Source: Ptychodera flava (taxonomy: Eukaryota > Hemichordata > Enteropneusta > Ptychoderidae). Taken from it: a stretch of 64,000 bases of DNA. Below the pieces are notes generated by a model. It was given only the letters and a program-made list of their open reading frames with translations, was not told the origin of the DNA and made no database searches. Shown one piece after another: positions 992 through 53,310 of the stretch. The translations under genes were made by a program, and so were the position numbers. Each line of letters begins with the position of its first letter. Position 1 is the first letter of the stretch. The DNA lies in assembly GCF_041260155.1 (NCBI RefSeq), contig NC_091944.1, positions 14,237,772-14,301,771 on the forward strand. Direction: 5' to 3'.

Positions 992-1144
992 GTCTCCCTC
1001 ACCGGAGCCAATCTATAACAGTGAAGGCAAGCGGCTGAACACACGGGAGTACCGGACTAGAAAGAAGATTGAAGAAGAGAGACACAAGCTAATTCAAGAA
1101 GCTCTTCAGTTGAACACAGAGTACAAGCCACCAGCTGACTACAA
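992..1144 (+). CDS. SF1: SF1 exon: SPSP motif and start of helix-hairpin region
   Basis: The first base completes an Arg codon from the exon upstream. The exon then encodes [19 protein letters not shown] and on to PPADY, ending two bases into a Lys codon before gtaagc. The paired SP serines correspond to the sites in human SF1 phosphorylated by the kinase UHMK1 (KIS), which strengthens U2AF binding; that is family knowledge. Confidence 0.93.
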
Positions 1145-4100
1145 GTAAGCCAATAACGTACCTTTTATATTCCATGCTCAGTGACTTGAAAAAGGCAGTC
1201 TCATTCATTTAGCAGTATTAACCAGTAATTGATTGTCATGACAAACATGTGGTATGATCTTCCAAAATATAGTGTGTGGTGCATTCATCTTAACCTAAAA
1301 TGCATCCAAATATTACTTGATACTAAGGACAAAATTGCAATCATGATATTCCAACAAACTTTTGCCATCATGTTTTCAGTAGAAGCTTGTGATGTAGGCT
1401 GTTAGTGCGTAATGTTTATGGCCTTCATCACAATAGTCGTATTCAGAATGTACTATTTTTTCTGAATATTGTGCGAAACTCCTTAAAATCTTGCATCAAC
1501 TTTTGTTGAATGTACATGATCTTGTGAATGTATTTACCGGATTTTTCTGAGAGTACGCCCAGGGCCGTTAAACAGAAAATGGCTACATTGTCTGCTTCAC
1601 ACCTGTAGCTAAATAACGGCCCAGGGCCGTAATTCGGTAAAAATTTACCGCCAATTAACTAAAAAATAAAGGAGTTATTTTATCACTGTTGATCACAAAA
1701 CCAAAAATAAATGACGGTAGAACGCTGCAAAACATCCACTCATTTTTTTCTCGAGAGTTTTGTTTTCTTTTTCGTCATTGTGCGCTACAAATTCTAACAG
1801 ATCCATCTCCAACAAAAAGGACACAATGTTGCAATTTCTGATGCATCATACAATAACATAAACTGACACTCATGCACTCATTCACGCACGCATAAAACTA
1901 AACTGACCCCAAGATACGATCAAGATTTCTTTTATTTGTATATCAACACAAATTGCAATAATAATTATACACATCTCTTGGAAAATAAAATCACACATGG
2001 AAAAATAAATTACGAGTCAGGTAAAAATAACGCATGGATAATCAACGCACAACCGTGACAACACAAGGTCCCATTTAGCTGTGGGTCCATAGCTGTGGTG
2101 TTTTCAGACGGGATTCATGCCTTTTACGGGCTGGTTTTGACATTTACGATTTTTAACCCCGCCACCACAGCTATGGGATATTCCATAGACTAGCGTCCAT
2201 GTTCCGCCGCAATCACCCTTTGCGGAAGTTTGCTCGACGATATTTCGAAATATTTTCCATCCAAATTACAAATTGCCAACACTCATCGACAGCTTGGTTA
2301 TTAGGGACTAACTAGACCAGAAGTCCGCTTAAATTAACTGAAATGTCGCCTTTTTTCTAAGTTTGCCCGACATGACTACACGGAGACCGCCATTTTGCTA
2401 GCGTAAAACTGTTGGTCGAGGATCCCTGCAGTACGTCACTACAGTGACGTAGCGGTGACCTCTCAACTTCTAAACACAAACTGAGAGATTCTTCGTGTGA
2501 TATCGATGACCATCGTTCGTCTTATGGACATTCCCAGTCTCACAAAACTGAAACCAAACTTTTACTTGGGGGTGGGGGAAAGTTCAGTCCTAGGATCTAT
2601 GATTATTCGTGGCGCGCGGATGCTGGCCGTAATCTCTTGGTTCGTGTTCAGAAGTTGAGAGGTCACCGCCTACGTCACTGTAGTGACGTACTGCAGGGTT
2701 GGCTGGTACCCGCCTCAGTGACAAGCACAGAGAGGCGTCTTCGTGCTGCGTCTAGCTAGTCACGTGAGACGCAGTGATCAGCGAAACTGCAGGGATCCTC
2801 GACCACAGTCCCTTTGGTGGAGGGACTGTGCCTCGACCAACAGATTTACGCTAGATTTTACTTGCCAATAACAAAAAGGAAAAACCTTTTTAAATTTTTA
2901 TATAGACATTTTTTTAATATATGCCTCCATGGTTGTGTCGAACGCATTCAAATTTAAGCGAAGAAAATCATCGATCAGATTTTGACATGTGCACGTGTTC
3001 TGAGGTTGACCTAGTTTTAGTCCTGCGTACGATGCTGTGTGTTCCGCTACAGCTAATATGGTGAGCGGGGCTATTAGCTGTAGCGGAACACACAGCATCG
3101 TACGCAGGGCTAACCTAGTTTGTATAAGTGTGACAAGTTAATCAAAGTAGTCGAACTTGTGAAAATAGATACAGTGTTTCACATTCGTTGCACGCAAAGA
3201 GGTCAATAATCGTAAACAATTGTGGATCATACCATTTCTACTAGGCATTACTACTACTGTTACGTTTGTGAATGCACAAATTTACGCGAAGAAAATCATC
3301 AGATTTTTGTATCAAAGCGAAAAAAACGTGAAAAGTAATGATGTACATTAAATAAAAAATAATGAAACAGAGTTATTTTTTATGATAGTCATTTTATTTA
3401 TTTCATGATCCCCATCGTGCAGAATGGAAAATTCCTGGCTCCTGCTTCATCTGTCAATCATTGTCGGCATTGTGTGGCAAACTCTAACGTTGACTTTGCG
3501 TTCTTCTGGATCATTCCACCTGCATTTTAGTAGCATAAATAGGGGGATACGGACATATATCGCCGAAGTAATTATCTTAGAAGTGTAACTTATTTTATTT
3601 TGTAAGCTATATAAAACTTTTTGACCTTTGCGTAGGTAATTTTTTTCAAGGGTAGTCAAGTTGAAATGCCGTAGACAAAGGTTGAGATGAAATTTAAATT
3701 CTTAATAACGGCCCACCCCCCAAATAACCGCCCATGGGCGGTTTTTCGAGTGGGCGTACTCTCAGAAAAATCCGGTACCACATTTTGATGTCATTTTGCA
3801 TCAGCCTCATCCATCCAGACCTGCCCGTCCCTACATTCCCATTCTGAATCAAGACTTAGAGTGTTTTATAAATAAATGCAAGAAAATGTGTTAAATACAC
3901 TAGGTACTTGCATGGCAAAAGTGAATATATGCAGCAGACTGAAAATACACTATTTTCTGTTTTCCTGTAAAAAACAGGCCTCCAGTTCAGAGAGTCAGTG
4001 ACAGAGTAATGATTCCTCAAGATAAACACCCTGACATCAACTTTGTTGGACTTTTGATAGGACCAAGGTAAGTCAGTTTTGCAAGTTTTGTAAGTCAGTG

Positions 4101-7100
4101 TTATATAAAGTTACTGCAGAGTTGTGAAAGGCTCGCTGTGTAGAGATATATGACCTCAACAAACTCTTGGTGGGCAAAAAATGTCAGCTGTGTCATCTTC
4201 AACTTTCGCTTTCCAATTTTTCACACTGTCTGTTGACTAATGATAGCAGATCCGGTTATCAGATTGTGAAGGGTGATTTACTTATAACGCTTACCGGGAA
4301 GAGTTTTGAGTAATTACTGTTTGTTACTTCTGAATAATAAGACAACAAGCAAAAAAGAATATGGTGAGAAAACAATGCATGACACATATGGGTGTTTATG
4401 GTAGATCGCGCCTAAGGGACAAATATTCTCACTCTCAAACTTTTACAATGGCATTTTGGTCTATCACTCCTTGGGGCTCATTTTGAAGCATATTGAATAA
4501 ATTAAGTTTTTGCCAGTTTATTTTTGTGAAAACAAAAATTAACTTCCGCCATAGAGTTAACACAGGGATATCAGCTGTTTAGAAATTTAAATGTCTGTAA
4601 TTGTTTCTCCTGTTCCAAATTTTCCATGGTAACCCCAGATTTTTAATTATAATTTCACAATGAAATGGTTTAAATTTTGCTATGGACAATTTGAGCGAGG
4701 TTTAAGTCTTTCAAATTCGAGGCGTGAAATACCTCAAGTGTATTTTGAAACAACCTTTCGTTTGCTTATTCTTTTTTCAGAGGAAACACCTTGAAAAAAA
4801 TGGAGAAGGAGACGTCGGCAAAGATCATGATTCGTGGCAAGGGATCTGTGAAAGAAGGCAAAGTAGGACGCAAAGACGGCCAACCACTTCCCGGAGAAGA
4901 TGAACCACTGCATGCACTGGTCACCGCAAATAATGCAGAGAGTGTAAAGAAAGCTGTGGACCAGGTAGGCTAGGGAACGCCACAATGAATTGCAACTGTA
5001 TTGTGATTATCACTTCCCCTTTTCTCATATTTGGTGAACTCTTTCTGTGTGGTTTCTGTGTATTTTATTTCCCTTCGGCTAACAATCACAGACACAGTAT
5101 CATATGCTTTTGTCCTATATTTTCACCTCTCACGTTGAATGAAACTCCTGCAGATATACTTTTTGAAAATTTATAGCGATTGTTTGTATCTGTAATCAGT
5201 GTAACATAAAAGTAACCCACTCTGTTCCAGTTAAAAATATATTTTGCACACTCATGAAATATCAATCAAGTTTTACGCAAACTGTTTTTGGTCAGGGTAT
5301 AGTTCAAAAATTACATATCAGTCACAAAAGAAATTCATTTCTTCTTGTAAGAGCACAAAACATTTAGAAAATGTGGTTGATGAAATTGACTACTGCACAT
5401 CTGATTTATTAGTAAAACATATATCTTAACACAAAACCACCGTTACTATGAGGGGGATACTAGTTAAGAACACTTGTTTACTTTGCACCAAATATACTCA
5501 CTTTGAATGTTTTGTCATAGCTTAATGTTTGCCGTAAAATAGAAACGTACAATTGTTTATGTCATTGACTGTGATTTTATTTTGTGTTTTTGAACCACAG
5601 AGCATGTAAGTTGACAGTGTACTTTGTGATTTTCTTTTCTCCCCTCAATGTTTTGCTTTTAGTTCATGGTCGCCGTACATGTTTTCAAGTAAACTCCCTG
5701 TTCAATTTGCTGTTGAGATTGCTGTATTAAAAGAACAAGAAACGATTCATTTAAAATCCCAAAGCTTTAAAAAAACCTGCAAGACATATTCCTCTAAATT
5801 TTCAGCAAGGAAGTTGTTCAGAGGTGATAATTTCAAAGTCAGGACAGAAATATTACCATATATTGTTTTGATGTAAAAATTGAAATATGAAGTGTTGATC
5901 TTTGTGACAGACATTTCAGCCTGACAAAATCTTCATTATGTTTTCTCAGATCATCCTAACCAGCTCTACTGTGACAGAATAATACAATTTCAAGTTTGTT
6001 GTCATAATTACACAAAGTGCCATTTCTATTGTACTAATTCTTCTGTTCATCAACAAATTTGATTTTTCCTGATGTAACATTGACAGCATGCGGTGTCGTG
6101 TGTACTAATCCTATTTTGTGAAAGTTTCCTACCAAAACCATGTGCGCAATGCACAACGACTGTCCCGTCAGACGAGTACACTGCTGTTGTTGTACTAATT
6201 CTAGCTTTTCCATTGACCCATACTCACATCCGTATTTTGTTTCTTTTATAGCAGTTTTCCTAGCCAGGTCTGTCTGTGCAAATTAAAAGCAGTGTGTTCG
6301 CAACGCACAAACTCACAATCACCGGTAGTTAGCAGACTCGACGTACACACAGTTTAATCTCAAAAGAGGTCAGAAAAAAATTCTGTGAGGGCACTTGTGT
6401 CTGAAACTGGAGTGCATCGTGTCAGTAATCCAAGCCATTATCACATCAACTGCAGATCCATCATAGCATATTGCAAGCTCATCTTTATTTGCTGTTCATA
6501 GCGCACCGATATTGCAATCGTCCAGTTTTTGTACTAATTTTATTTTACCTTTTCAGCAAGCTATTTTGTACTTATCTGTATTTTTTATTTCTATCTAGCT
6601 CAGTGTAGAACCACAGTTTTGCATTTTGTCTCCAAAGCCGCCTAGACTACCATAGCGATACCTGTCACTCCGCTCCTTATCCCCCCCACTCCCTCACCTC
6701 AGCTCCCTGTATGGAATGCAGTTTTCTCTTTTCACAGCCTTTTACTAAAATACATCTGAGTTTCTGAGTTCGGTGTTCTGGGTAGTTCCCTCGTGGGAGG
6801 ATTCTTACCTTGGTGTTATTGGTGTGGTACTTCAGAGTTTAACTGTTTCTGCAGAAAAACTTGGACTGCTGTTCTCTTCATGAGTGAGCAGTTTTCGTCA
6901 ATTTGACCTGGTCTTACGATTAACAGGCAAACACAACTCTAACAATCAATTTCAAATTAAATTATGAAATTGAAGCTCTCACTCTGTGTATGTGCATTCT
7001 TGAAGAGAGGTTAGACTTTTCAAATGACAAAGCAAAAATTTACTATCAGTGATTTGAAAAACATGTTTCGTCAACTGTTACAATATCCCAGCCATTGCAT

Positions 7101-10100
7101 GTTTAAGATTGGCTCAGTGTGTTGAAGAGTATATGGTCTGTAAAGTTATTATATATGAATGCGAAAAACGATGGAGAGATTTTTGGTTTTCTTATGTCAA
7201 TACCCATTGTCATTCCTGGGCTGTTTCAAATAGATAAATGTCGGACTATTAGTTGATATCAACCAAACCCCAGGCTTAAATGACTCCAAGGGAGACGCAA
7301 TCCCAGAATGTACAGTCCCTTCCCCAAACGAAGGCCCTACTCACTACATGTGCCAGATCACATATCTATATCTCTCTTAGATAAACGAGATCATCAGGCA
7401 GGGGATTGACACACCAGAGGGACAGAATGACCTGAAGCGTATGCAGCTGCGCGAGCTAGCAGCACTCAATGGTACTTTACGTGATGCGGAAGCCGTAAGG
7501 TATTTGTGGACGTACTTATACTCTTCTTTTTCTCCACCCCTTTTTCTCCCCTCGTGCTGTCTTGTGTATGTGTTTGTAGATCAATGAAATAATCAAACAG
7601 GGAATCGAGACACCTGAAGGCCAGAACGATCTGCGTCGCATGCAACTACGGGAGCTTGCCAAACTGAACGGCACCCTACGAGAGGATGACACTATAAGGT
7701 TCATTTGGTTTTTATTTCTTTGGTGTGCACTTTATTATTTTAAGGCAGACTCTTTATGTTGCCAGCATTTTACATATATGGTGTGTGTTGAAGTCCTTTC
7801 GGTGCCGTACAGGGAAAGACGCGGATGTTGAAATCGCCAAGGCTGTGTGGCAGTAGGAAGTTTGGATGGCCAGGAGTGCTACTAACAAAACTGCTCAAAA
7901 CTGACTGCTTTTTTCCATTAATATTTCATATGTTCCAGTGATAGACTACCAACTTACAACTATACTGAAACCTTCAAACAATCAGGAGAAATATGCTCAT
8001 CATTATTCATGAACAGTATTTAAAAACATTGCCTTTCAAATTATAACTTTCAAAAATCTTCACTGCGCTGTTCCTAACCATTTCAGTCCAGCTGAGCTAT
8101 GCCTAGTGAAAATGTAATGAGAAAAGTGGTGATTTTAGTACGCAATTTTATGGAGTACTGAAATTTCAGATACACTTGTGTGAGGCAATAAGCAAAGTCT
8201 CTGTAGGGTCTGCCTCATGATGACATTTCCAAGTATGTCAAATGTACAGATGAGTTGCTAGATTCATTATATGTATATTATCTTTGGCATGAGAAATTAC
8301 AATGTAAACGCCTTGGAATTGTATTCCACACATGTATAGATCTTTTTCGTATCATGGCATCTACTAAAATCTTCCTAGAAATCAAAAGAGCAGGAACCAC
8401 CAACATATTCTAGGATTTTGTGAAAAAATATGGTTCAGTAACCAGTAACTGTAAAAATTGCAAGCTGAAACCTTGAGATCTGTTTCTTGAGTATCGGCAT
8501 GAAGAGCTAATTGAGCATCGGCGTGAAGAGCTATCTTTCTTTTGATTGTTAGATGAAATTATTCAGAAAAATATTACTAACATATTATAGCACCGAAAGG
8601 ACATGAGACAAAGGTGTAGAAAGTTTTAGTGCATTTGTTTGGACTTCAACCTATCCCACCTCTTTTCCATGTGTAATGGAGTGGTCCGTAAAGTGGATCA
8701 TTCCATTCTTCATGTAACTAGGATGGGTAGGTTGAAGACTGCATGCCTCCCACCCAACCCTAATCCATCCCATAATACTTTATGGATTTGTTATGCATGG
8801 CCTCTTACCAATGTTTGCCAAAAACTACCATGTTTATTAATGGTACCGTATTTTTGTGTAATCTCGTCTTTTTTGGCATGCAGTGGAAAAAAACTGCCTA
8901 CTTTCTTAGCATAACAAAAATCTGGGGATGAAAATCTTAAATTTGGGAGCGCTGTATCTCATATATATCATACGATAATGTAAATCGCACGTAGGATTCA
9001 TTGGGGAAAAGGTCCAAATACCGGTACAGTAGATAGATGCCAAGAAAAGCAATTTTAAAAATATCACCGTAAACATGGATTTTACATCTTTGTGTGTAAG
9101 TCATTGTGAATGACATTTGTGTAACGTTAGAACTTGCCAACTGTTCAAGTTTACTGTCAAAGCACATGGAAAGATTCAGTAGAAAGGTGAACTTAGTTGG
9201 CTTTTTACATCTCATTAAACAATGCTAGTATGTCAAGGTAAGTATGACGCAGTGAAACGTGTGTATTATTGACACCGTTTTGGTTTGGTAAGGGAACATT
9301 GTATATTTGAACTTGCCTTCACAGAACATGGTTGATCTTTGTTCAGACAAAAGATCCTGTTTATATTGCTAAAGACACCATGATTATGTCTTTCCTGACA
9401 ATATCTTGCCTCTTGAGATTGAAATACGTAAAATAGTCTTTGAAATATGACAACTATTCATGCTTAGCAAGTAATGATATCTAAGTGAGCACATCAGCTT
9501 GGTGTATCACAGTTAAGAAAGAAATTTGCAACCATGTGCAGACCACTTTGATTAACCACCTAAGAGTAAGACACCCAGTTCCTTGCTCATAGTGTGTAAT
9601 ATATGGCTTACTATCCTAGCCACTTGTGTAGTTACTCTAAGAATATGATTGAGATATTGAAACTGGCTTTTGCACAGTGGTTGAAGTTACAGAAGATTCA
9701 CATTTTCAGAACAATTGCTTTTGTAATTCTCTGAACAGAATCAGACCAAAAGATAAAATGTATGTGGCATACCTTGTTCAGACTATCTGATTAGCATTGT
9801 TTGTATTCCTGATGTCTCATTGAAGTGATTTAAATCGGAAACAAAAATAAATAAATTTAAGAAAACATATCATTATAAACATATAGTTTGATTGCCTTTC
9901 TCTTTACAAAAATTTTTAAATTTGTAACACTTCTGTTTCAACAGATGTACCAACTGTGGAGCCAGCAGTCATCGTACATGGCAGTGTACAGAGAGGCAGA
10001 ACATCACCAACACAGTGCAGTGTTCCCAGTGTGGTGGTGCTGGTCACATTGCTGCTGACTGTAGACAGAAACGGGACAGAGCAGGAGGATTTGGACCTAC

Positions 10101-13100
10101 AAATACAGTTGACAAGGCCAAAATGGACAGCGAGGTCAGATAGTTTTTGTAAAATGTATACATGTTACAACTATTAGAGCACTGCCAGTGAAATTCATTA
10201 AATAATCTCCCTGAGATGCATTTGTTGAAGTCCGAGTTCTCTTGTTGTAATTGCTTGAAGTCCTTCAGAAGTCTAGTCTGCAGTTGTTTGTTGTGTGCTT
10301 TGCCAGGAATGGTGTGCCATTATTTCATCAGAAAGAATGAAACCAGGGGTGAAACCAGGGGTGTGATAGAGGGCGCTGTATATCAGAGTGGATCGTTCCT
10401 TTGTAAATTATCTCATCAAGCCAGACTAACTTGTGTTTCTTTCTTTCCGTTTTCTCACAGTACTTGTCTCTGATGGCAGAGCTAGGGGAAGGCCCGCCGC
10501 CACCAGCAGCTCCATCAAACATGTCACACCACCATCCATCATCCGGACCGAGACCTCTGCTCTCAACACCTGTTAGTCATCCTCCTCCATTGGTGAATAT
10601 TAAACATTTAGTCATGCATGCAATCTGGCACTGTCTCGCCCCGAGGATTCCCCATGGCAGGCAGTGATCTTGGTTGATGGACTGCGCCATTGGGAGCTGG
10701 GGTAGGCAGGTGTCAAGTTGGTAGTTGTGTGCTGTGGTATTGTTTCTTTTTTCTCTTTACACCCACTTCACTCCCACTGAAATGCATACAGCAAAATTAC
10801 ATCCCTCACAGGACTCGTGTTTTCTTCTCATTTTACAAACTTTCACCTTACTTACATATAAAGTGATATCCAAGCAGGAAAAGAAGTACAGTACATTTTA
10901 TGTATTTACATACATATATGCTATCACACCTGTTTCACACTCTGTAGCATCTTTTACAAGGCTATACATTAGTATTTTTCTCACATATACAACTACACTA
11001 CATGCCCTTTATGTTTAGACAAGTTATATGTCTGTCATCGTTCTTGGTGTTAACAACATTGACTTTGATATGTAGTTAAAGGAGAGACTTTTCCTGATTT
11101 TTGCCACAACAGATGAGTCAGAATGCACCACCTCCATGGATGCAAAACAAGCAAGAAAAACAACATCATAACATGATGGACAATAGACCGCCAAGCCTTC
11201 TTGGGTCAGGACCAAACCAGCCACCACCTAGTCTAATGTCACAGCATGTTCAACCCCATCACAATATGCCGCCTCCACCCCCTCCGAATGTTTCCAACCA
11301 GCCGTGGAATCAACCACCCCCAGCACCCCCATCATCAGCATCAGGTAAGCCAGTTCATATTGGGAGCAGTGTTGCAGCTTTCTCTGTAATTTTTACAGAA
11401 CAACTCACTTCCTAATCTCTACAATGGACCAACTCTTGAATAAAATGTTGCACTCAAAGTACTGCAGTGTCTTATGAAAAATGGATGCTGAAATGCTATG
11501 CTCATAGTGGTACAAACAAATTCATGTGGATCAATACACACACAGAAATACATGTAATTCTATGTTGGTTTCTGCTTTGGGGTTTCGTACTATGGTCCAT
11601 TCAAATTCAGGATTTAACCCATTGAATTGGAAATGGAGAAATTACTGGGAAGGACATGTAAAATGTGATGGTTGAATAACTATTTTCTCAGCCCTATGAC
11701 ATCCAATCTTTCACTATTTCAATAGTAAACTTAAATTTACATGCTGATAAATGCAACCAAAATCATTCATAAACATTCCCATTATCTCTTTCAGTTCCTC
11801 CACCGCCGCCGCCCTCTCTTCTCGCGGCGCCTCCACCACCACCCCCAACAAGTGAACCTCCGCCGCCGCTGCCGACAAGCCAGTCTTGGCAGGGACAGAC
11901 GAGTAAGTAGTTGAGCACTTTCTGATTGGCTGGAGCTCACTTGTTTTAATAGCACTGCTAACAGCCAGTGGTGTTAGAATATCACCAGCTTCAGTCAGTT
12001 TTCAAGATAACAAAGGGTTGCAATTCTAGGATAATCTTTGCATGTAAATTTCTTCTCTCACGCTGGAAAGCAGCAGAAAAAATTGTTTGACCCTTATTCA
12101 TGAAGCAGAGCTTTATATTGATGGGTTGATCTGGTTCATTGGTTAAATCGTTGGTCACTGTCTATATATTTAAGCAATAATGTCCTCCTTCAGGCCCACA
12201 ATATGGGCGAAATCAAACTTTTTGCAACATAATGTACATTATGTACATTATGGAGTGCAAAGTTTTCTTGAGTCCATTATGGCCGGGACGGGGTACATTA
12301 GTGCTGTTATTTTATAGTTTTTGCCAATGAATATGTAGATGCAGAAAACATTCAGGCCACAATGCTGGATAATTGGATACATTATCAGAAATAAACTGAG
12401 GGTATGACACCACAAAATTCACTGGTATTGACAAAGCAATAATATAATTCAGAATATTTAAATTTGGAATAATTCTTCCTTCTAGAGTGAGGCACTGTCC
12501 TCTTGTTTATCTCTTTTGAAATCAATCTCCTATCTTAAGGTGGCTGGAAAGGCTAGAGCGTCAGCTATAAACTTCAACAAAACTATTAAAATTTAAAAGT
12601 AGTCAACATTCTGTGGAATAAAAAAACCAGACATTTGGAGCCAAAGGCATTGCAGAGTTATAGCCTGTTGAAACTTCTGAAAAACTGACCAGATAAGAAG
12701 AAGTTGGGGAGTCCTTTGTGTATTAAATATGGTAGAGGTCCCCTAGCTTTTAAAAAATGTTTGAAAGGGAAAGTCATTTTTTGCTGTTTTTCAGGAAAGT
12801 TTGACAAGGCGGTGCTGGCATTCAGAGTGAGTGACTGCTATTGTAAATGCATTTTTAGATTCTTTGAGTGTCAAAGAGGTGTCAAAAGTGAGATTAACCA
12901 AAAAGACTGCTCTGTGACTTCAAAAGAGGGGTGCAAATATGGCTTGTTTCAACAGTTTTGACAGAATAACAGTTTTCTTACATAATTTCATGCCAATTTA
13001 ATCCAACCTTTGAATGAGATATGGACATGGAATTTTTACAGCCTATTAACAAGGTTACAGACAAGATGACTATGGCACAATTTTCCTGTATTTGAAGTAC

Positions 13101-14328
13101 TTTTTGAAAAATCACATTTTGAAATTTGAAAGAATTTTTTAATAATTGTTTGATATGTAAACCCATGTAAAATCATAAAACAAATTTTATTTACAAATCC
13201 TGCCGTACATATCTTACAATTAATATTGTCAACATATTTATAACTATTTGGTAATATTTAGTGCTATCCAATTATTATGAAATTCAAATATGTAAAAAAA
13301 TATGAAAAATTAAATTTTAATATTTACTGGTATTATATTTCAAAATCATGAGTGCAAATATACAATTTTTATATTATTTGGAAAAATTATTAAGTAAGGA
13401 GTTATCCTGAAAATTTGAACTAAATATCTCTATTCTAACACTTGAAACTTGACATTAACTCTGAGATAAGAATTGGTGCAAAAATAGCCTTTCCAGCCAC
13501 CTTAACCGGTTTTCAAAAGTAAAAGTGTTGGCAAAATATGCAAGTAGTTTGGTGGATAATTTCAAGATTGGCACCCCGAGCACCTTGATCTCCAAAACAC
13601 ATGCTTCCAGAACTGTGTGTGAGCTATTGCAATGTCTAACTGGATGTCTTTCCTATTATCTAATTCAGGCAGTGCTCCAACCTTAGCTACAAGCCCTGCT
13701 GGGGCACCGCCCCCCTGGTACCAGAATCAAGGTACTCACGAAATGCGCACACACACACAGTGCAGTATTGTAGTGTGGTAGTCTGTGTAGTCGTCATCTG
13801 TATAAAATCAATGAACATTAGGGGACGTTGTTCATTGAAGATTTCTTCCTAAAATGTGTTCATGGAAGAGTTGAATAGTAAACAACAAATGTAGGCCAGC
13901 AATAATGTTTGTCAATGGCATTAACTTTTTGCAGATTGCAGCATTTCTTCCCTGAAATACCGACTTTCTATTCATTTCCAGGTTCATCATCAGCATCGTC
14001 TACATCGTCCTCAGTGATGCCACCACCACCACCATGGCAGGTACCACCAATCACAACTATGGCCCACATGCCACCATGGCACCAACCACCGCCACCGCCG
14101 ATGCCGCCACCGCAGCACCCCGGTATGATGCCTCCTCCCATGCAACCAGGAATGCCGCCGCCTCCAGTACAGCCCCCACTTCCCCCAGGGCCACCACCTC
14201 CTCCCCCAATGGGCATGATGCCTTATGGTCAGCCACCACCCCCTCCACCCCCAGTAGACATGCAACAAAATATGGGTGCTGTCCCCCCTCTTTTGCCACC
14301 AGCACCCCCACCACCACCTCCAAACTAA
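992..14328 (+). CDS. SF1: Splicing factor 1 / branchpoint-binding protein, 3' eleven exons (5' end outside window)
   Basis: Nuclear RNA-binding protein that recognises the intron branchpoint (UACUAAC-like) together with U2AF in the early spliceosome. Exons read in phase: 992-1144, 3978-4067, 4781-4964, one of 7381-7499 or 7580-7698, 9945-10134, 10461-10592, 11113-11344, 11795-11902, 13669-13731, 13982-14328. About 538 residues lie in the window. In order they give the SPSPEP motif, a KH domain with GLLIGPRGNTLK, QUA2, two CCHC knuckles, the [10 protein letters not shown] motif and a proline-rich tail ending PPPPPPN. Every step matches the known SF1 family. The N-terminal U2AF-ligand motif must lie upstream of base 1. 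All introns are GT..AG; the donor after 10134 (gtcaga) is weak. The mutually exclusive QUA2 exons are unusual. Identity is very sure; exon edges rest on reading phase and splice consensus, not on transcripts. Confidence 0.95.
2398..2861. repeat. Nested inverted repeats inside the intronic transposon
   Basis: GCTAGCGTAAA and TGTTGGTCGAGG at 2398-2421 recur inverted at about 2833-2856. A second pair, containing TACGTCAC and GGTGACCTCTCAACTTC, lies at 2424-2471 and inverted at 2650-2698. A hairpin with CACAGTCC arms is at about 2804-2830. This looks like one foldback element inserted in another. Confidence 0.6.
3023..3107. repeat. Perfect 36-bp hairpin
   Basis: The arms 3023-3058 and 3072-3107 are perfect reverse complements with a 13-nt loop. 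They lie inside the 1535-3777 element and are probably an independent tiny foldback. Confidence 0.75.
3978..4067 (+). CDS. SF1: SF1 exon: first half of KH domain
   Basis: Encodes [16 protein letters not shown] and the start of the GxxG loop (GLLIGPR), flanked by cag and gtaagt. It is in phase with both neighbours. The KH fold binds the branchpoint RNA. Confidence 0.94.
4393..4738. mobile_element. Degenerate copy of the 340-bp TTAA MITE family
   Basis: It shares the order of blocks with the copy at 47876-48210: a CTCTCAAACTTTTACA-like block, GGGGCTCATTTTGAAG, a GTTCCAAATTTTCCATGG-like block and AACCCCAGATTTTTA. The termini have decayed and the TTAA is no longer clear. Confidence 0.5.
4781..4964 (+). 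CDS. SF1: SF1 exon: second half of KH domain
   Basis: Completes Arg-Gly-Asn-Thr-Leu-Lys of the GxxG loop. It continues through [15 protein letters not shown] and [14 protein letters not shown] to KKAVDQ, ending on a codon boundary at gtaggc. Because it ends in phase 0, skipping both alternative exons downstream would shift the frame. Confidence 0.95.
6032..6538 (+). promoter_or_regulatory. Cluster of four TACTAAT branchpoint-like heptamers
   Basis: TACTAAT occurs at 6032-6038, 6103-6109, 6193-6199 and 6532-6538, in the intron upstream of the two alternative SF1 exons. UACUAAC is the optimal site for SF1 itself. The last copy is followed by a pyrimidine run and cag at 6556-6558, so it looks like a complete 3' splice site with no recognisable exon after it. 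These may be decoy or autoregulatory sites. The regulatory role is inference. Confidence 0.35.
7381..7499 (+). CDS. SF1: SF1 alternative QUA2 exon A
   Basis: A 119-nt exon encoding [20 protein letters not shown] and on to [10 protein letters not shown] plus two bases of an Arg codon. Acceptor tctcttag, donor gtatttg. Its peptide matches exon B at 31 of 40 residues. Five of the nine changes fall in the last six residues, where Asp-Ala-Glu-Ala-Val replaces Glu-Asp-Asp-Thr-Ile. It has the same length and phase as exon B and joins the same zinc-knuckle exon. Many synonymous differences from B suggest an old duplication kept by selection. Whether it is used needs transcript data. Confidence 0.85.
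7580..7698 (+). CDS. SF1: SF1 alternative QUA2 exon B (canonical-like)
   Basis: A 119-nt exon encoding [20 protein letters not shown] and on to [10 protein letters not shown] plus two bases of Arg. This is the version closer to human SF1, which has [12 protein letters not shown] and LNGTLREDD. The acceptor follows a very long pyrimidine tract and ends gtttgtag; the donor is gttcat. QUA2 extends the KH surface that holds the branchpoint RNA. If exon A were joined directly to it, the reading frame would meet TAA in the fifth codon. Confidence 0.92.
9945..10134 (+). CDS. SF1: SF1 exon: two CCHC zinc knuckles
   Basis: One base completes Arg; then [14 protein letters not shown] and [14 protein letters not shown], each C-x2-C-x4-H-x4-C, lead to VDKAKMDSE. 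Human SF1 retains only the second knuckle, while yeast BBP has two. The knuckles add nonspecific RNA backbone contacts in the known family members. The donor after GAG is gtcaga, weaker than the others. Confidence 0.93.
10461..10592 (+). CDS. SF1: SF1 exon: [10 protein letters not shown] motif and proline-rich start
   Basis: Begins after ctcacag with [18 protein letters not shown], the strongly conserved block after the knuckles in animal SF1. It ends in phase 0 at Leu before gtgaat. The block is followed by His/Pro/Ser-rich sequence. Confidence 0.9.
11113..11344 (+). CDS. SF1: SF1 exon: Met/Gln/Pro-rich tail
   Basis: Opens at ATG in phase 0 ([14 protein letters not shown]) and runs through [11 protein letters not shown] to SSASG, with donor gtaagc. 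Composition matches the PPWM-type tail of animal SF1. Such tails bind WW, SH3 and FF domains in known members. Confidence 0.88.
11795..11902 (+). CDS. SF1: SF1 exon: proline runs
   Basis: Phase-1 exon giving [18 protein letters not shown] and on to SQSWQGQT, with a tttcag acceptor and gtaagt donor. Because both ends are phase 1 it could be skipped without shifting frame, as could the next exon. Confidence 0.85.
12535..13505. mobile_element. TTAA-flanked MITE, 971 bp, in SF1 intron
   Basis: Both ends carry TTAA followed by a 17-bp inverted terminal repeat (GGTGGCTGGAAAGGCTA at 12539-12555, its exact complement at 13485-13501). TTAA target duplication is the hallmark of piggyBac-type transposons. 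No transposase ORF is present, and the interior is AT-rich with only short meaningless ORFs. It is therefore a nonautonomous element. Confidence 0.75.
13669..13731 (+). CDS. SF1: SF1 exon: small tail exon
   Basis: A 63-nt exon encoding [20 protein letters not shown], phase 1 at both ends, acceptor attcag and donor gtactc. The PPPWYQNQ block resembles the LPWQQ-type repeats of the SF1 tail. Confidence 0.82.
13982..14328 (+). CDS. SF1: SF1 last coding exon
   Basis: Starts after ttccag with a Ser run, then Pro/Met-rich sequence ([25 protein letters not shown]). It ends APPPPPPN with TAA at 14326-14328. The human protein ends in almost the same way. Open frames on the other strand and in the second frame here are products of the CCA/CCN composition. 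Confidence 0.93.
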
Positions 14329-16973: not shown

Positions 16974-17433
16974 AGATAGTACCCACCCAGATACTGTTTC
17001 AGATCTAATCAAGTCATTAACAGTATATGATCTATAAATTGTGATATGTGTTACCTGCCAATTAATAACTTTAAACAGCTTATCCCAGTATTGCAAAAAA
17101 TTGTTCATAGATACATATAGGCTTTTAAAAATTGAATTACAAAATACCAAGTTATTTGTGAGTTGTTAGAAACCTGTGAAGCTGTTCTTTTATTTGATTA
17201 TTTCAGGCAACTTGATTTGTTGCGACAAAGTTAAAATATCAGACAAGTTTTGTTATGAGAAATATTCTCTGTAATGGTGTGATCTTCGATAGTAAAAATG
17301 TTTGAAAAATGATAAAAACAATTTCTAACCTACCAGCTGCTTGTGCAAAGATACCTAAATGCTTTAAATTTAGAAAAAGGAAAAGGAGTGTGTACTGTGT
17401 CCCATTCTTAAGAAATTATCAATACCTTGAAGG

Positions 17434-18004
17434 TGTTATGTAGGTCATTTACCCCACACTCATCATGACCTGAGTTCAATTAGTCTAGAACATTCTCAAG
17501 GTCACTACCCTTAATGACCTCACAACCTTGAATTCAATTAGTCATGTTTGGAATGTTCTGGAAAGTTGATTAGTTGTGTAAGGGAGATAATTTTAGAACA
17601 GTAATTAGCATGTCAATAAAAGTTCTAGATTGTTCTTATATGCCTTTATAAAAGGGACGTGCACAGCTTCTAGTCAGACTTTTGGGATCGTGTCTCTTGT
17701 GTGTTACTAAACTCCAGCAGTAGTCATTCTCAAGACTTTTCAAGACCTTCACTGTCAACGCTGGATTTATACTGTGGACTTTGTGCAGCTTCAAGCCTGC
17801 AAGCCAAAGGACTGTTCATTCATTCGACTGACTGTTACAACTCTGAGACTGGAGCTTTGCCGTCCCAGCTGAGATAAGTAGTCTGTACACTTTAAAGCTT
17901 GTACTCTATCCCTGACTTAGCAATTAGTTTTATTTTTGTAATAAATTCTGTTTAAAACGTTATTTGCTGAGTTCACCCTTTTGTTCGTTTCTCTGCACGT
18001 AACA
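17434..18004 (+). repeat. 5' LTR
   Basis: 571 bp from TGTTATGTAGG to GCACGTAACA. Contains TATAAAA at 17646-17652 and AATAAA at 17940-17945, fitting a U3-R-U5 layout. It differs from the 3' LTR at seven sites: three substitutions and four one-base indels. Confidence 0.95.
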
Positions 18005-18007
18005 AAT

Positions 18008-18025
18008 TGGGGGCTTGTCCGGGAT
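18008..18025 (+). promoter_or_regulatory. Primer binding site, tRNA-Pro-like
   Basis: TGGGGGCTTGTCCGGGAT starts 3 nt after the LTR. It differs by one base from the classical proline-tRNA primer site known in several retroviruses, so tRNA-Pro is the probable primer. Confidence 0.8.
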
Positions 18026-18106
18026 ACGAATATTTTGAGCCGTTTGACAACATTTTGACAGCCTTTTCAAAACTACTATATACTGTGAACTCAGCGAAAT
18101 TTAATC

Positions 18107-19753
18107 ATGGCGGAATTTAAACCAGACGAATTTATGGATGACCTTGATCAGGACACATTTAATTCCCTCAGAAAAGACAACCTCATAGCACTGGCCAATT
18201 TCCTTAAAGTAGAAGTTAAAAGATCTATGCGCAAGAGGGAAATACAGTACCGTATTGCCAAACATCTGGTTGATTTAGGCCAATTTGAGGAATCCACCTT
18301 GAAAGATTATGAGCCCGAGTCTACCTTTGAACTAAGAAAATTAGAATTAGAAATGCAGACAAATTTGGAGATCAAGAAACTAGAATTACAAATGAGAGAG
18401 AAAGAATTACAAATGGAAAAAGAGAGACAGGCAGATTTGGAGCTTAAGAAATTGGAATTAGAAAGGAAATGAAAGAAAAAGAATTGCAAATGGAAGAAAG
18501 ACAGAAAGAAAAAGAAAGGCAGGAAAGATTAGAATGGAAGAAAGACAGAGAGAAAAAGAATTGCGATTAGAAGAACAGCGATTACAGGTAGAAATAAAAC
18601 GTTTAGAGCTTGGACAGTCAGGAAATTCTTCCCTTCGGACAAGTTTGACATCACTAAGCATTTCAGGTTAGTTCCCCCTTTCCAAGAAAAGGATGTTGAC
18701 AAATATTTTCTCCATTTTGAGAAAATTGCTCAGAGTCTGAATTGGCCTAAGGAGTCCTGGTCTATGCTTTTGCAGAGTGCTTTGGTGGGTAAAGCCAGAG
18801 AAATTTACATTCAGTTGTCAGTAGAGCAGGCTTCAAATTATGATTCTGTGAAGGAATTAATTCTCAAGGGTTATGAGTTGGTGCCTGAAGCGTACCGTCA
18901 GAAATTTAGGGATTGTGAGAAGGCGAAAGACCAAACTTATGTTGAATTTGCTCGAACAAAAGAACAACTGTTTGATCGCTGGTGTTCTTCTGAAAAGGTC
19001 AGTCAGAATTATGACAAATTACGACAACTTGTTTTGATTGAGGAATTTAAAAGGTGCATCCGGAGTGACATCAAGACGTTTATCAATGAACAAAAGGCAG
19101 ATACATTGGAGGTTGCTGCACGTTTGGCCGATGATTATTCATTGACACACAAATCTTCATTTCTCAGCAAACCATCCCAGTCCTTTTCATACAGAAACAA
19201 TGCAGGTAAATTTAACTCCTCCTTTTCATCCAAGAATTTTTCAAAGGAGAGTAGAAAATCAAATGACAACAGTTCACAGAGTTCAAGTAACACTCCCACA
19301 TCATCAGATCCCAAGTCTCAATCTCCTTCTGACAAACAGTTTGGTACACTTTCTTGTAATTATTGTAAGAAAGACGGCCATTTAATGTCAGAGTGTTTCA
19401 AATTGAAAAGAAAACGTGAAGGTCAAAGTGGTCAAAGTGGATCTAAGCCAACCGGCTTTATTTCTTCATCAACTCAATTAGAGTCTAATAATGTGTGCAA
19501 CACATTTTCTGAGGTTAAACCCCTCTTATCCCCAATTAATGAGGTCAAGGTCAATTCTTCTCAAGATAGCATTATGGGTATTTTCGAGCCATTTATTCAT
19601 AATGGTTTTATATCACTTTCTAGTGATTTTTCTTCCGCTACCCCTGTCAAAATTTTAAGAGATACCGGGGCTTCCCAGTCTCTTTTGTTGGCAGATACCC
19701 TGCCGTTTTCTGAAAAGTCATTTTCAGGTTCTAAGTTCTTATTAAGGGGGTAG
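18107..19753 (+). pseudogene. gag (with SCAN-like capsid segment) running into protease, frameshifted
   Basis: The first frame (18107-18472) starts at a good ATG. It has a SAP-like helical stretch at residues 15-55, then a long charged coiled coil rich in Glu/Lys/Leu. The frame is broken between about 18460 and 18650. It resumes upstream of 18764 and stays open to 19753. That part carries the capsid-like helices; residues such as YRQKFRD..K and LRQLVLIEEFKRCI recall the SCAN domain. A CCHC knuckle (CNYCKKDGHLMSEC) lies at 19355-19396. The protease active site DTG, in LRDTGAS, is at 19661-19669. The frame ends at 19753, where the protease should continue in another frame. Not a working gene as written. 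Confidence 0.85.
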
Positions 19754-21332
19754 ATTGTAATGACTACATTCCTGTTCCTCTCCATAATGTCTATTTGTCT
19801 TCGGACTTGTTTCTGGACCTGTGGCTTTAGGTATTAGGCCTTTTTTGCCTTTTGAAGGGATTCACCTTCTTCTTGGAAACGACCTTGCTGGGGACAAGGT
19901 CATTACTAATCCACTTGTGACTGATAATCCTAGTTTAGATCAGGATCCAGAGCCAATTGAACAAGAGATACCCGATTTATTTCCTTCATGTGCCATTACT
20001 CGAGCCATGTCAAAGAAAACTTCCGAGAATCAAAATACTCTCAAAATAATGTCACAGATGTTGACTTAAATGACACCTTTCTCAGTCAGGTGTTTGACAC
20101 GGATCATTCCGTTATCCCTCGTGGATTTGAAACTTCCAGTAAACTTCTGCTGACCAAAGTCAGACATTTTCTAGATCAAATCTCATTGCAGAACAACACA
20201 AAGACCCAGATATTTTGTCTTTGTTTGACAGGGTAGATGATGAAGGTAAAACTTCAGATAGCTCTGTTTCCTATTATACAAAATCTGGTATTCTCATGCG
20301 TAAATGGAGACCTCCAGATGTCTTGGTTGATGACGATTGGGCTATAAAACATCAAATTGTGGTTCCAAAGCCCTATCGTGCTGAATATTGCGCCTGGCCC
20401 ATGAAACGCCCTGGGCTGGTCATTTGGGAGTAGGAAAACTTATCATAAAATTCTCAGTCACTTTTATTGGCCTAATCTCAGGCAGGATGTAGCACATTTC
20501 TGTAAAACTTGTCACACATGTCAAATGGTAGGAAAGCCGAATCAGACCATTCCAAAGGCCCCTTTACAGCCAATTCCTGCATTTCAAGAACCATTTAGTA
20601 GGATACTAATAGACTGTGTTGGGCCCCTACCAAAAACAAGATCAGGAAATGAGTACATGTTGACAATTATGTGTACATCAACTCGGTTCCCGAAGCCATA
20701 CCACTGAGAAATATAAAGACAAAGACTATAGTGAGAGCTTTAGTCAAATTTTTCACTTTATTCGGCCTCCCTAAATGTGTCCAGTCCGATCAAGGCTCCA
20801 ACTTTATGTCTGGTATTTTTCAACAAGTAATGGATCAGCTAGGCATTAAACAGTATAGGTCATCCGCCTATCATCCAGAAAGTCAGGGTGCTCTTGAGCG
20901 ATTTCATCAAACTTTGAAAAACATGATTAGGACCTACTGTTTTGACACGAGAAACAGTGGGATGAAGGAATTCATTTTTTGCTCTTTGCTGTTAGAGAGT
21001 CAATTCAAGAGTCTCTTGGTTTTAGCCCATTTGAGCTTGTATTTGGACATACAGTCCGTGGCCCACTTAAGCTCGTTAAAGAGAAATTCCTATCAGACGA
21101 CGATGATTGTCTGAATATTTTGCAATATGTGTCAGATTTTCGTACAAACTCTCTAAAGCATGTGAATTAGCCAGAGAAATCTTGAGTCATCTCAGCAGTC
21201 AATGAAAACCAATATGATAAAAACACCTCAAAACGGAAGTTTGAACCAGGTCAAAAAGTTCTTGTTCTACTTCCGGTTCCTGGCAAACCACTCCATGCTC
21301 GTTACTTTGGGCCATACCTAATTGATAAGAAA
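19754..21332 (+). pseudogene. Protease remainder and integrase, several frameshifts
   Basis: Pieces in all three frames together cover a typical gypsy linker and integrase. They include a post-protease segment ending DLFPSCAITRAM (19821-20069) and the HHCC zinc-finger region with CKTCHTC (about 20439-20527). The catalytic core has Asp at 20612-20614, Asp at 20788-20790 and Glu at 20896-20898, a D,D-35-E spacing. Frame changes fall near 20050, 20220, 20420, 20700, 20950 and 21170. The catalytic triad residues themselves are all present. The DNA joins the RT frame downstream through the GPY module. Non-functional as written. Confidence 0.85.
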
Positions 21333-23057
21333 TTGAGTGATTTAAATTACATCATAATAACACCTGACAGGCGAAAACAAAAACAGCTATGTCACATAAA
21401 TATGCTTAAGCCATATTTGGATAGGGATAATCCTACTATAACTCAGCCTGTCAGTGCAGTCAGTTCAAACCATTATGAAGATAGTGATACTGAAACTGAC
21501 TTGAGTGAAAATACTCTAAACTCAAAGCTGGGCTCGGTCAAGCTTCAGAACTCAGAAATCCTGGAGAAGCTGGAGTCTACAAAGTTGGCACACCTCCAGC
21601 CAGAACAACAACAACAGGTGAAAGAACTGCTCCATGAATATAAACACCTGTTTCAAGATGTTCCAACGAGGACAAACGTCATCTATCACGACGTTGATGT
21701 TGGGGACAGTAAGCCTGTAAAACAACATCCATACAGACTGAATCCAACAAAAGCAAAATATCTCCAGGAAGAAGTCAAATACCTGCTGGACAATGACTTT
21801 ATTGAACCCAGTAAAAGTAACTGGAGTTCGCCGTGCATACTTGTTCCCAAATCAGATCACAGTTATCGTATGTGCACAGACTTTAGGAAGGTCAACACTT
21901 TAACAAAGACAGACACTTTCCCAATCCCGAGGATTGATGACTGCATCGACCGAGTGGGAAAAGCCAAGTATGTGACAAAATTTGACCTACTGAAGGGATT
22001 TTGGCAAGTCCCTCTGACGGATCGTGCTCGTGAAATATCCGCCTTTGTTACACCAGACGGATTGTTCCAGTACAAGGTGATGCCATTCGGAATGAAGAAC
22101 TCTCCGGCAACGTTCCAACGGATGATCAACGACGTCATATCCGGGCTAGACGGGTGTGCAGCCTACGTTGACGACGTCGTCCTGTATAGTGACACCTGGG
22201 AGGAACACATCAAGCTCATGCGGAAGTTCTTTGAGAGACTGAGCAAAGCAATGTTGACTGTCAACCTTGCCAAATCTGAGTTTGGTTGGGCAAGGGTAAC
22301 TTACCTCGGACATACTGTAGGACAGGGTGAGGTAAAACCTGTTGATGCCAAAATCAGTGCCATTTCAAGTTTTCCCATACCAAACTGCAAACGACAACTG
22401 ATGCGCTTTCTCGGTATGGCTGGTTACTACAGAAAATTCTGTCCAAATTTCTCCACAATTACTGAGCCTTTGACTAACTTACTTAAAAAGAAAGTAAAAT
22501 TTGTTTGGTCAGAGCAATGCCAACAGGCATTTGATACACTTAAAGCCATACTGCAAAGTGCCCCAGTGTTGTCTGCACCAGATTTCACTTTGCCATTCAA
22601 ATTAGCTGTAGATGCTAGTGATACGGCTGCTGGTGCTGTTTTATTGCAAGAGGATAGTCATGGTGTAGATCATCCTGTTTGCTATTTTTCACGCAAATTT
22701 AACAAATCCCAGAGAAACTACTCTACAATTGAAAAAGAGTGTTTATCTTTGATATTAGCTTTACAGCATTTTGAAGTTTATGTTACTTCTTCAAATCAGC
22801 CAATAGTGGTTTATATTGATCACAACCCTCTTGTTTTTCTGCAGAAATTTAAAGGCAAAAATCAGAGATTGCTAAGATGGAGTTTAATGTTACAGGAGTT
22901 TAATCTTGACATTAAGACATATCAAAGGCAGAGACAATTTAATTGCAGACTGTCTCTCTCGTATTTAGAAATTATTGTTGTTCACTTTCAAGAAATTTTA
23001 TTGTTGTTCACTTTCAAGAAATTTTACTTTAGAGTAAAACAAAATTTGAGTACTTAA
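21333..23057 (+). CDS. pol: Integrase C-terminal GPY module fused to reverse transcriptase and RNase H
   Basis: A 574-codon open frame; the listed first codon is TTG and the frame in fact extends upstream, so this is the 3' part of a polyprotein. Residues 1-35 complete a GPY/F-type integrase tail (HINMLKPY). RT follows: MCTDFRKVN, KFDLLKGFWQVPL, MPFGMKNSPATFQR and the catalytic YVDD at 22164-22175. RNase H follows with its first Asp in LAVDASD (22611-22613), Glu in EKECLS and Asp in YIDHNPLVFL. A one-base frame change just before 22924 moves the last RNase H motif into another frame. Reverse transcription of the element's RNA is the family role. No envelope gene is seen. Confidence 0.9.
   Translation: MSDLNYIIITPDRRKQKQLCHINMLKPYLDRDNPTITQPVSAVSSNHYEDSDTETDLSENTLNSKLGSVKLQNSEILEKLESTKLAHLQPEQQQQVKELLHEYKHLFQDVPTRTNVIYHDVDVGDSKPVKQHPYRLNPTKAKYLQEEVKYLLDNDFIEPSKSNWSSPCILVPKSDHSYRMCTDFRKVNTLTKTDTFPIPRIDDCIDRVGKAKYVTKFDLLKGFWQVPLTDRAREISAFVTPDGLFQYKVMPFGMKNSPATFQRMINDVISGLDGCAAYVDDVVLYSDTWEEHIKLMRKFFERLSKAMLTVNLAKSEFGWARVTYLGHTVGQGEVKPVDAKISAISSFPIPNCKRQLMRFLGMAGYYRKFCPNFSTITEPLTNLLKKKVKFVWSEQCQQAFDTLKAILQSAPVLSAPDFTLPFKLAVDASDTAAGAVLLQEDSHGVDHPVCYFSRKFNKSQRNYSTIEKECLSLILALQHFEVYVTSSNQPIVVYIDHNPLVFLQKFKGKNQRLLRWSLMLQEFNLDIKTYQRQRQFNCRLSLSYLEIIVVHFQEILLLFTFKKFYFRVKQNLST
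22975..23026 (+). repeat. Two tandem 26-bp units before the polypurine tract
   Basis: TTGTTGTTCACTTTCAAGAA plus ATTTTA is repeated exactly twice, between the end of the RNase H region and the polypurine tract. Confidence 0.8.
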
Positions 23058-23117
23058 ATCCTTTTCAAGATTACATTTGTAAAAGAAAGATTTTTCTTTG
23101 AAAAATTTTCTTTTTTT

Positions 23118-23129
23118 GAAGAGGGGGTG
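23118..23129 (+). promoter_or_regulatory. Polypurine tract
   Basis: GAAGAGGGGGTG abuts the 3' LTR, the usual plus-strand primer position. Confidence 0.8.
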
Positions 23130-23700
23130 TGTTATGTAGGTCATTTCCCCCACACTCATCATGACCTGAGTTCAATTAGTCTAGAACATTCTCAAGGTCA
23201 CTGCCCTTAATGACCTCACAACCTTGAATTCAATTAGTCATGTTTGGAATGTTCTGGAAAGTTGATTAGTTGTGTAAGGGAGATAATTTTAGAACAGTAA
23301 TTAGCATGTCAATAAAAGTTCTAGATTGTTCTTATATGCCTTTATAAAAGGGACGTGCACAGCTTCTAGTCAGACTTTTGGGATCGTGTCTCTTGTGTGT
23401 TACTAAACTCCAGCAGTAGTCATTCTCAAGACTTTTCAAGACCTTCACTGTCAACGCTGGATTTATACTGTGGACTTTGTGCAGCTTCAAGCCTGCAAGC
23501 CAAAGGACTGTTCATTCATCGACTGACTGTTACAACTCTGAGACTGGAGCTTTGCCGTCCCAGCTGAGATAAGTAGTCTGTACACTTTTAAAGCTTGTAC
23601 TCTATCCCTGACTTAGCAATTAGTTTTATTTTTGTAATAAATTCTGTTTAAACGTTAATTGCTGAGTTCACCCTTTTGTTCGTTTTCTCTGCACGTAACA
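23130..23700 (+). repeat. 3' LTR
   Basis: 571 bp, about 98.8% identical to the 5' LTR by direct comparison. TATAAAA is at 23343-23349 and AATAAA at 23636-23641. It is followed by AAGG, the target duplication. Confidence 0.95.
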
Positions 23701-52211: not shown

Positions 52212-53310
52212 TTTTTCACCGCCATGTTGGCCGTATTAGCGATTGACATTCCGCACTAGCGGAAATTTTAGCGTTCTACGAGACCAATGTTATAATTTTT
52301 AAGGTTCAAAGGCTCTGTCTATTAGGCAGAAACCCACACGCAATTTTGAATCGCTTGCCGACTGACCTGTTGACTGGACTCGATGAGTTCATCGGCACAC
52401 ATTATATACATTCCAACACAGTGTGTATAGTGACGACTTGTTGCTCATCAAGTGCTCTAAGCATACATTTCCGTTCCAAAGGAGTTCAACTGGCACGCAT
52501 AAATAGTCTTTTCAACTCAGAAAAAAGTTTTGTTCTGAAAACTTTCTGATTCAGTCGAAAACGTGAATTCTACAAGTCCCGGATGTTAAGTAATTAATCA
52601 TGGTGGCAGTCGATGCCCTTCACAATATCTCGCTGCTATTGTGGTCAAAGCAACTTAGCAAGGGTGACAAATTGCCATGTGTCATAAATGTCCGTAGGGG
52701 GATCTTTAAGAGGTCATCAATGATAAGGAAACACGAAAAAATTGTTACTGATAAGATACGGATAATTCATTTAGTACAGTTTATTGTGTATGTCTAAAGG
52801 TTATTAAAACTCCATGATTATCACTTGTTAGCTGTGCTCAAACTATAAAAATGCAAGGAACATTCTTTTATATTGCAACAAACAATGTTAAATAGTTCAG
52901 AACAAGTTGTGTTTGTGATAACGTTGGGATAATGACGTCAAGACCTACTTTTACATTAAATTCTTGCTTACAAATGGACTTATCACAAAGACAAATGAAA
53001 AATGTGACAAACTGCAAAGAATAGTCAATGATTTCAAACGATCTTTCTAAAACAGGCAATGTTGACAAGCTGGGTATCTGGAAGACCCAGATTCTGTATC
53101 AATGCTATTTTTGACACATGAAACAAAAACCTCGGACAATGTCAAAAGTTACCATAATCAGGCCTAATTGATTTCATAGATTACAACAGCAATAAAGTGG
53201 ACAACATTTTGCAAAAAGTTCTGAATTTCCATTTCTTGTCTGTTTTCTTTTAGTTGCGAAGTTAGATCGTCAGACAATTGAATGATACCCAGAGGATACT
53301 CAGGATCATC

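Follow-up and report, generated by a model that had tools for sequence, protein, structure and literature searches.

Most of the gene for SF1, the branchpoint-binding protein, of the acorn worm Ptychodera flava (Hemichordata, Enteropneusta) lies on the plus strand of the 64,000-nt stretch of DNA analyzed here, which we refer to as the window. Eleven SF1 exon positions are recognizable within it (Table 1), and about 120 earlier codons fall outside it, judging by comparison with an NCBI protein, "splicing factor 1-like isoform X4 [Ptychodera flava]" (P0002), a database model with a name in RefSeq style. Two of the exons, A and B, each encode a QUA2 segment. The reading frame that runs through exon A (isoform A) stays open to the stop codon and yields 538 aa counted from the window's first exon, and isoform B, with the other exon, has the same length.

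That this gene is SF1 and that the exon pair falls in QUA2, both proposed in the initial annotation, is borne out by Pfam families, by alignment with human SF1 and by the match to P0002. The helix-hairpin domain with its SPSP motif (PF16275) scores 74.8 bits against a Pfam cut-off of 29.3, and the BBP-type KH domain (PF22675) scores 77.3 bits against 30. The conserved 254 residues of human SF1 align end to end with both isoforms (E = 1.8e-111 for A and 4.9e-115 for B), and both also align with 1k1g_A through QUA2. After QUA2 the product has CCHC zinc knuckles followed by a proline-rich tail; the single Pfam match to the zinc knuckle family PF00098 (21.5 bits, cut-off 20.8) is the second knuckle, and the first was identified by eye, its C, C, H and C being invariant in 41 aligned sequences. 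The N-terminal part of P0002, the corresponding exon of which lies outside the window, contains a basic stretch with RSRW that may correspond to the N-terminal ULM (U2AF-binding tryptophan motif). Of the 538 residues of the window's isoform A, P0002 shares 531; the remaining seven form a single gap that lies outside exon A. The seven residues absent from P0002, VSHPPPL, are encoded at 10572 to 10592 by the longer form of a proline-rich exon, and an upstream 5' splice site in that exon, likely situated after position 10571, would account for the gap.

Table 1. Exons and candidate splicing elements of SF1 in the window
Feature	Positions	Strand	Basis
SF1 exon, SPSP motif and helix-hairpin domain (PF16275)	992..1144	+	P0002 comparison
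SF1 exon, start of KH domain (PF22675)	3978..4067	+	
SF1 exon, KH domain; last exon before the alternative pair, ending in phase 0	4781..4964	+	
Four TGTACTAAT sites, candidate regulatory element in the intron upstream of exon A	6030..6538	+	
TACTCAC, candidate branchpoint for exon A (adenine 7343)	7338..7344	+	sequence prediction
Exon A, diverged QUA2 exon; used by NCBI isoform X4	7381..7499	+	
A-B intron, 80 nt	7500..7579	+	
Exon B, QUA2 exon of the conserved type; its 5' splice site, GTTCAT, is weak	7580..7698	+	
SF1 exon, two CCHC zinc knuckles; completes the shared Arg codon	9945..10134	+	
SF1 exon, 7 residues of which are absent from P0002	10461..10592	+	
SF1 proline-rich exon	11113..11344	+	
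SF1 proline-rich exon	11795..11902	+	
SF1 proline-rich exon	13669..13731	+	
SF1 last coding part, stop codon TAA at 14326-14328	13982..14328	+	

The intron between the window's first two SF1 exons carries nested inverted repeats at 2424 to 2698 (29 nt at 100% and 39 nt at 90%), perhaps a small foldback element, and a near-perfect hairpin at 3017 to 3113 with 42-nt arms (98%) and a 13-nt loop. About 3 kb beyond the SF1 stop codon is a young-looking LTR retrotransposon (17433 to 23652) whose terminal repeats are about 99% identical over the matched blocks; a SCAN domain match falls in its gag-like frame, and its integrase core precedes the reverse transcriptase/RNase H frame, which we take to be the gene order of Gmr1-like elements. 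Elsewhere in the window, tandem repeats with a period of about 150/300 bp, probably satellite-like, span 37569 to 38808, part of the array being open over 221 codons, and two long uninterrupted C2H2 zinc-finger reading frames of similar layout occupy 44785 to 46326 and 53278 to 54963.

Exons A and B are adjacent, homologous, and equal in length and phase. Their coordinates, phase and splice dinucleotides as first recorded are exact to the base: each exon is 119 nt long, follows the same Gln codon in phase 0, and ends in AG, which the A at position 9945 completes to an Arg codon. The reported identity of 31 of 40 residues corresponds to 30 of the 39 residues with whole codons plus the common split Arg. 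Including A and B together gives R-S-M-K and then a stop early in exon B, and skipping both gives 37 out-of-frame codons and then a stop; since either wrong combination stops early, a working mRNA can use one exon only, and inclusion of a single exon is needed for a productive frame. The proposal of one exon per mRNA therefore stands at the level of the reading frame, and at the RNA level it is suggested by the frame together with the short A-B intron and its branchpoint-like site close to the 5' splice site. A tblastn search of the window found no third QUA2 copy (other matches had E values of 1.1 or weaker), and no extended homology was found between the introns flanking A and B, for which the best blastn match was 20 nt long (E = 0.15). 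We conclude that A and B are very probably a tandem exon duplication in P. flava SF1 that is spliced in a mutually exclusive manner, with enforcement that likely has two layers.

The 39 codons compared between A and B comprise 7 identical ones, 23 with synonymous differences and 9 that encode different residues; third codon positions match at 10 of 39, and fourfold sites at 2 of 14. The dN/dS-type check suggested at the outset gave a pN of 0.134 and a pS of 0.94 by Nei-Gojobori style counting, the latter value being saturated and beyond correction. When neutral decay was simulated in 20,000 copies of B at matching third-position divergence, at most 10 of 39 residues were kept and 15% of the copies were without a stop. 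Chance preservation of the likeness between A and B is excluded. The initial annotation had described diverged synonymous positions around a preserved core, and indeed the QUA2 residues that are invariant in 42 aligned sequences (hand-picked from the proteins retrieved; two of the 42 carry A), QLRELA and LNGTL among them, are equal in A and B. Residues kept far beyond the neutral simulation at saturated pS indicate that both exons have long been held by selection. Selection, one half of the earlier claim of an old duplication under selection, is thus upheld; old age, the other half, fits the saturated synonymous sites, and the phylogenetic analysis described below gave no date.

By sequence comparison, B is the conserved hemichordate form and A the diverged form. 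The QUA2 of a Glandiceps talaboti record equals B at 39 of 39 residues and that of a Saccoglossus kowalevskii record at 38 of 39, with exon A at 30 of 39 in the same comparison; human QUA2 matches B at 31 of 39 residues and A at 25. Isoform A is already annotated as a protein at NCBI, as P0002 uses exon A. Exon A was present in P0002 alone among 197 distinct proteins retrieved in three protein searches (120 of 365, 11 of 11 and 68 of 68 matches listed), a set in which representatives of 90% clusters may hide isoforms with A; among those representatives we found no P. flava protein record with B. Seven of 11 short matches (P0121 to P0127) end exactly at the Arg that closes A and B, which would fit the same 3' exon limit. 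Nine of the 11 look cnidarian and two fungal, and a second QUA2 copy was found in none of them. The top search score belonged to P0001, from the mayfly Ephemera danica, which has two QUA2-knuckle segments within a repeated block. These segments are identical, and we rejected P0001 as an alternative exon pair and read it as an assembly or annotation duplication. A repeated stretch is also present in P0039 (fungus Asterophora).

To place the duplication, a tree was inferred from 35 QUA2 segments over 39 columns, comprising 32 hand-picked from the 197 proteins in addition to P. flava A, P. flava B and human; lgn_fungus and lgn169 were dropped from the tree, and jgi_fungus was left out since its protein starts too late. 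In the best tree A branches outside the B sequences of deuterostomes, at a weakly supported position (40/75). Over the whole segment A is most identical to the sea lily Anneissia (82%); along the tree, its shortest path leads to hemichordate B. None of the constrained groupings was rejected: p-AU was 0.244 for A with hemichordate B, 0.171 for A with hemichordate B and echinoderms, 0.265 for A with cnidarians, and 0.281 for a deuterostome B group without A. The 39 columns cannot decide among these, and the duplication is therefore not datable by this tree. Residue sharing at the nine sites where A and B differ bears on a further reading, under which A descends from an ancient QUA2 exon that is older than the hemichordates and has been lost or gone unannotated elsewhere. 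At these sites A matches two stony-coral rows at 5, Rhizopus at 5, and hemichordate B exons at 0, a pattern that would suit an ancient A, as would the placement of A in the best tree. The five cnidarian rows, however, scatter from 1 to 5 matches, eight echinoderms share 1 to 3, and the matches are mostly conservative K/R or D/E exchanges; moreover, the nearest relative of A is Anneissia or hemichordate B, depending on the measure, and a grouping with hemichordate B survives the test on what are only 39 columns. We regard such an ancient origin of A as unlikely, and note that it concerns the age of the exon and is compatible with a mutually exclusive tandem pair.

The splice signals around the pair suggest how exclusion may work. 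The A-B intron measures 80 nt (250 to 2833 nt for every other intron in the window). A single yUnAy site occurs in it, TACTTAT at 7513 to 7519, which would put the branchpoint at A7518, 19 nt from A's 5' splice site and 61 nt from the 3' splice site of B. Downstream of this site come a C/U tract at 7521 to 7553 (32 of 33 positions are pyrimidines) and after it a UG-rich stretch; the intron is free of AG up to its 3' splice site. The intron has eight adenines, six of them at most 37 nt from the 5' splice site and the other two at positions 69 and 79. For human OGDH exons 4a and 4b, PMC7969005 describes branchpoints mapped 25 to 41 nt from the 5' splice site, below a proposed threshold of about 50 nt, that enforce the choice between the two exons and keep them from being joined, with a large pyrimidine tract downstream. 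The arrangement resembles that of A and B in its short intron, 5'-proximal branchpoint and large pyrimidine tract; OGDH is, unlike SF1, a metabolic enzyme, and its branchpoints are mapped whereas the SF1 site at 19 nt is predicted. The predicted site would lie below the roughly 50-nt steric threshold. Among mononucleotide shuffles of the 80-nt intron, 83% keep a yUnAy site, and in 25% of these all sites lie within 30 nt of the 5' splice site, so the position of the branchpoint alone is not significant.

We hypothesize two layers of enforcement. In the first, the spacing of 19 nt between the predicted branchpoint and the 5' splice site of A would make U1 and U2 snRNPs sterically incompatible, and the join between A and B would be blocked. 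Nonsense-mediated decay of transcripts with premature stops is an established pathway, and in the second layer it would destroy transcripts that contain both exons or neither. We infer both the steric step and the decay of wrong products from the sequence. The choice between the exons is probably set by the long pyrimidine tract of B against its weak 5' splice site. The last 30 nt before the two exons have the same pyrimidine fraction (0.67), but over the last 60 nt the fraction is 0.78 before B versus 0.60 before A, with pyrimidine runs of 17 and 15 nt before B and a longest run of 8 before A. The 5' splice site of exon B scores 1.26, the lowest of 11 donors scored, and that of exon A 5.54, these being rough weight-table scores. 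Exon A would thus have the better 5' splice site without a long pyrimidine tract, and its candidate branchpoint (A7343) lies 37 nt from its 3' splice site with one AG between. Such a balance of pyrimidine tract against 5' splice site would leave the choice of A or B open to regulation.

These features of exon A could also be read as those of a cassette or decaying copy, rarely or never used, with B as the sole functional exon. Its 3' splice site without a long pyrimidine run, the AG that intervenes between the exon and its sole yUnAy site, its occurrence in a single one of the retrieved proteins, and its difference at 9 of 39 residues from a B that is near-constant across three hemichordates would all sit comfortably with disuse. 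We nevertheless consider this very unlikely, given that A has an intact frame and canonical splice sites, retains the invariant QUA2 residues at a synonymous divergence where simulated neutral copies lose most of the sequence, and is contained in NCBI isoform X4. Highly improbable, in our assessment, is exclusion by competing RNA base-pairing between docking and selector sequences in place of branchpoint spacing. Pairing of this kind is known to govern mutually exclusive exons elsewhere (PMC6071210), but the 16 inverted repeats in 4965 to 9944 (14 to 22 nt, 73 to 93% complementary) have no obvious common docking arm, and the region 7300 to 7720 folds no better than shuffles (z = 0.56). These repeat and folding results cover the P. 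flava sequence alone, and the long-range pairs are described by their length and complementarity. No Rfam family matched at gathering score in the window. Branchpoint spacing backed by decay of the wrong products remains our preferred account of exclusion.

A regulatory input to the choice could come from the upstream intron, where four copies of TGTACTAAT, a sequence that contains the STAR/SF1-type motif UACUAAY, form a cluster that was spotted post hoc. The 2416-nt intron holds 4 UACUAAY motifs against 0.36 expected (P about 0.001), and when the window's 15 plus-strand sites are placed at random, 4 fall within 500 nt with P = 0.0024; across the window as a whole there is no excess (20 on both strands against 18.1 expected). 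According to PMC3116199, the tandem UACUAAC repeats of Gomafu RNA are a stronger binding target for SF1 than the divergent branchpoint sequence of mammals, and SF1 is described as competing with QKI at ACUAA sites (PMC13004596). The cluster together with these binding reports makes self-regulation of the A/B choice at most a fair hypothesis. A stronger form, in which STAR proteins including SF1 bind the cluster and the two unusual branchpoints and set the A:B ratio, and in which the two SF1 forms prefer different branchpoint contexts, is in our estimation quite unlikely. The same elements could instead make the pair mainly an off switch, SF1 or another STAR protein driving joint inclusion or skipping and thereby limiting the amount of SF1 through unproductive splicing. 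Both wrong combinations do stop early, and four UACUAAU sites do lie within about 500 nt in the upstream intron; yet autoregulation of this sort has no need for two exons that each hold a full protein-coding core, the A-B join that it would exploit appears sterically disfavored, and the cluster was identified post hoc, and we judge it a decidedly improbable purpose for the pair.

If mutually exclusive splicing operates as proposed, the product would be two SF1 proteins with an equal QUA2 core and different surface residues and links to the first zinc knuckle. The nine differences split into four within the first 34 residues and five within the last 6 (Fisher p = 0.001, for a split chosen once the differences were seen). 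The first four, given as A/B, are R/K at residue 6, D/E at 10, K/R at 19 and A/K at 28, which correspond by alignment to human residues 227, 231, 240 and 249; the last block, DAEAVR in A and EDDTIR in B, is the link from QUA2 to the first zinc knuckle. PMC4735526 describes the 5' (U/C)AC portion of the site as what QUA2 recognizes in SF1, QKI and GLD-1, and an effect on branchpoint preference is therefore possible. The altered branchpoint affinity envisaged in the initial annotation is a conjecture, given that the invariant core does not differ between the exons and that most of the differences sit next to the knuckle, and an effect on knuckle placement or on a protein partner seems at least as likely. 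Any difference between A and B in RNA binding is something that we infer.

Tandem exons of which each transcript takes only one are a familiar arrangement, and SF1 is an unexpected gene for them. The usual picture of SF1 is of a general factor that has a single RNA-binding domain and varies only in its tail. We found no published report of an alternative QUA2 pair in SF1 in the open-licence PubMed Central literature. Human SF1 belongs to the same protein family, and its chain has a B-like QUA2; in the alignment it is without the first zinc knuckle, whereas the P. flava protein has two CCHC knuckles. Among other STAR-family proteins, QKI and GLD-1 resemble SF1 in that KH-QUA2 reads UACUAAY-type sites (PMC4735526), and differ from it in having a QUA1 dimerization domain, which SF1 lacks (PMC13004596). 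The closest precedent in function is the Ab/3 exon pair of U2AF1 (U2AF35), which like A and B consists of tandem homologous alternatives and acts at the same step, the recognition of the 3' splice site and branchpoint. The Ab/3 choice is set by weak branchpoints and a long pyrimidine tract, as described in PMC5224494, where a search for SF1 gave 0 hits. It concerns another gene and another domain, and has been studied in vertebrates; the SF1 exons, unlike Ab/3, encode QUA2, which contacts the branchpoint itself.

With the P. flava pair added to U2AF1 Ab/3, there would be two early 3' splice site factors in which tandem exons exchange a domain. A swap of part of the branchpoint-binding surface is a natural experiment in how far QUA2 may change and still work, and the lineage that carries SF1 A and B offers a test of whether branchpoint choice is regulated through SF1. 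If STAR proteins do set the A:B ratio and the two SF1 forms do prefer different branchpoint contexts, a core and supposedly constitutive step would become a tunable splicing switch in acorn worms.
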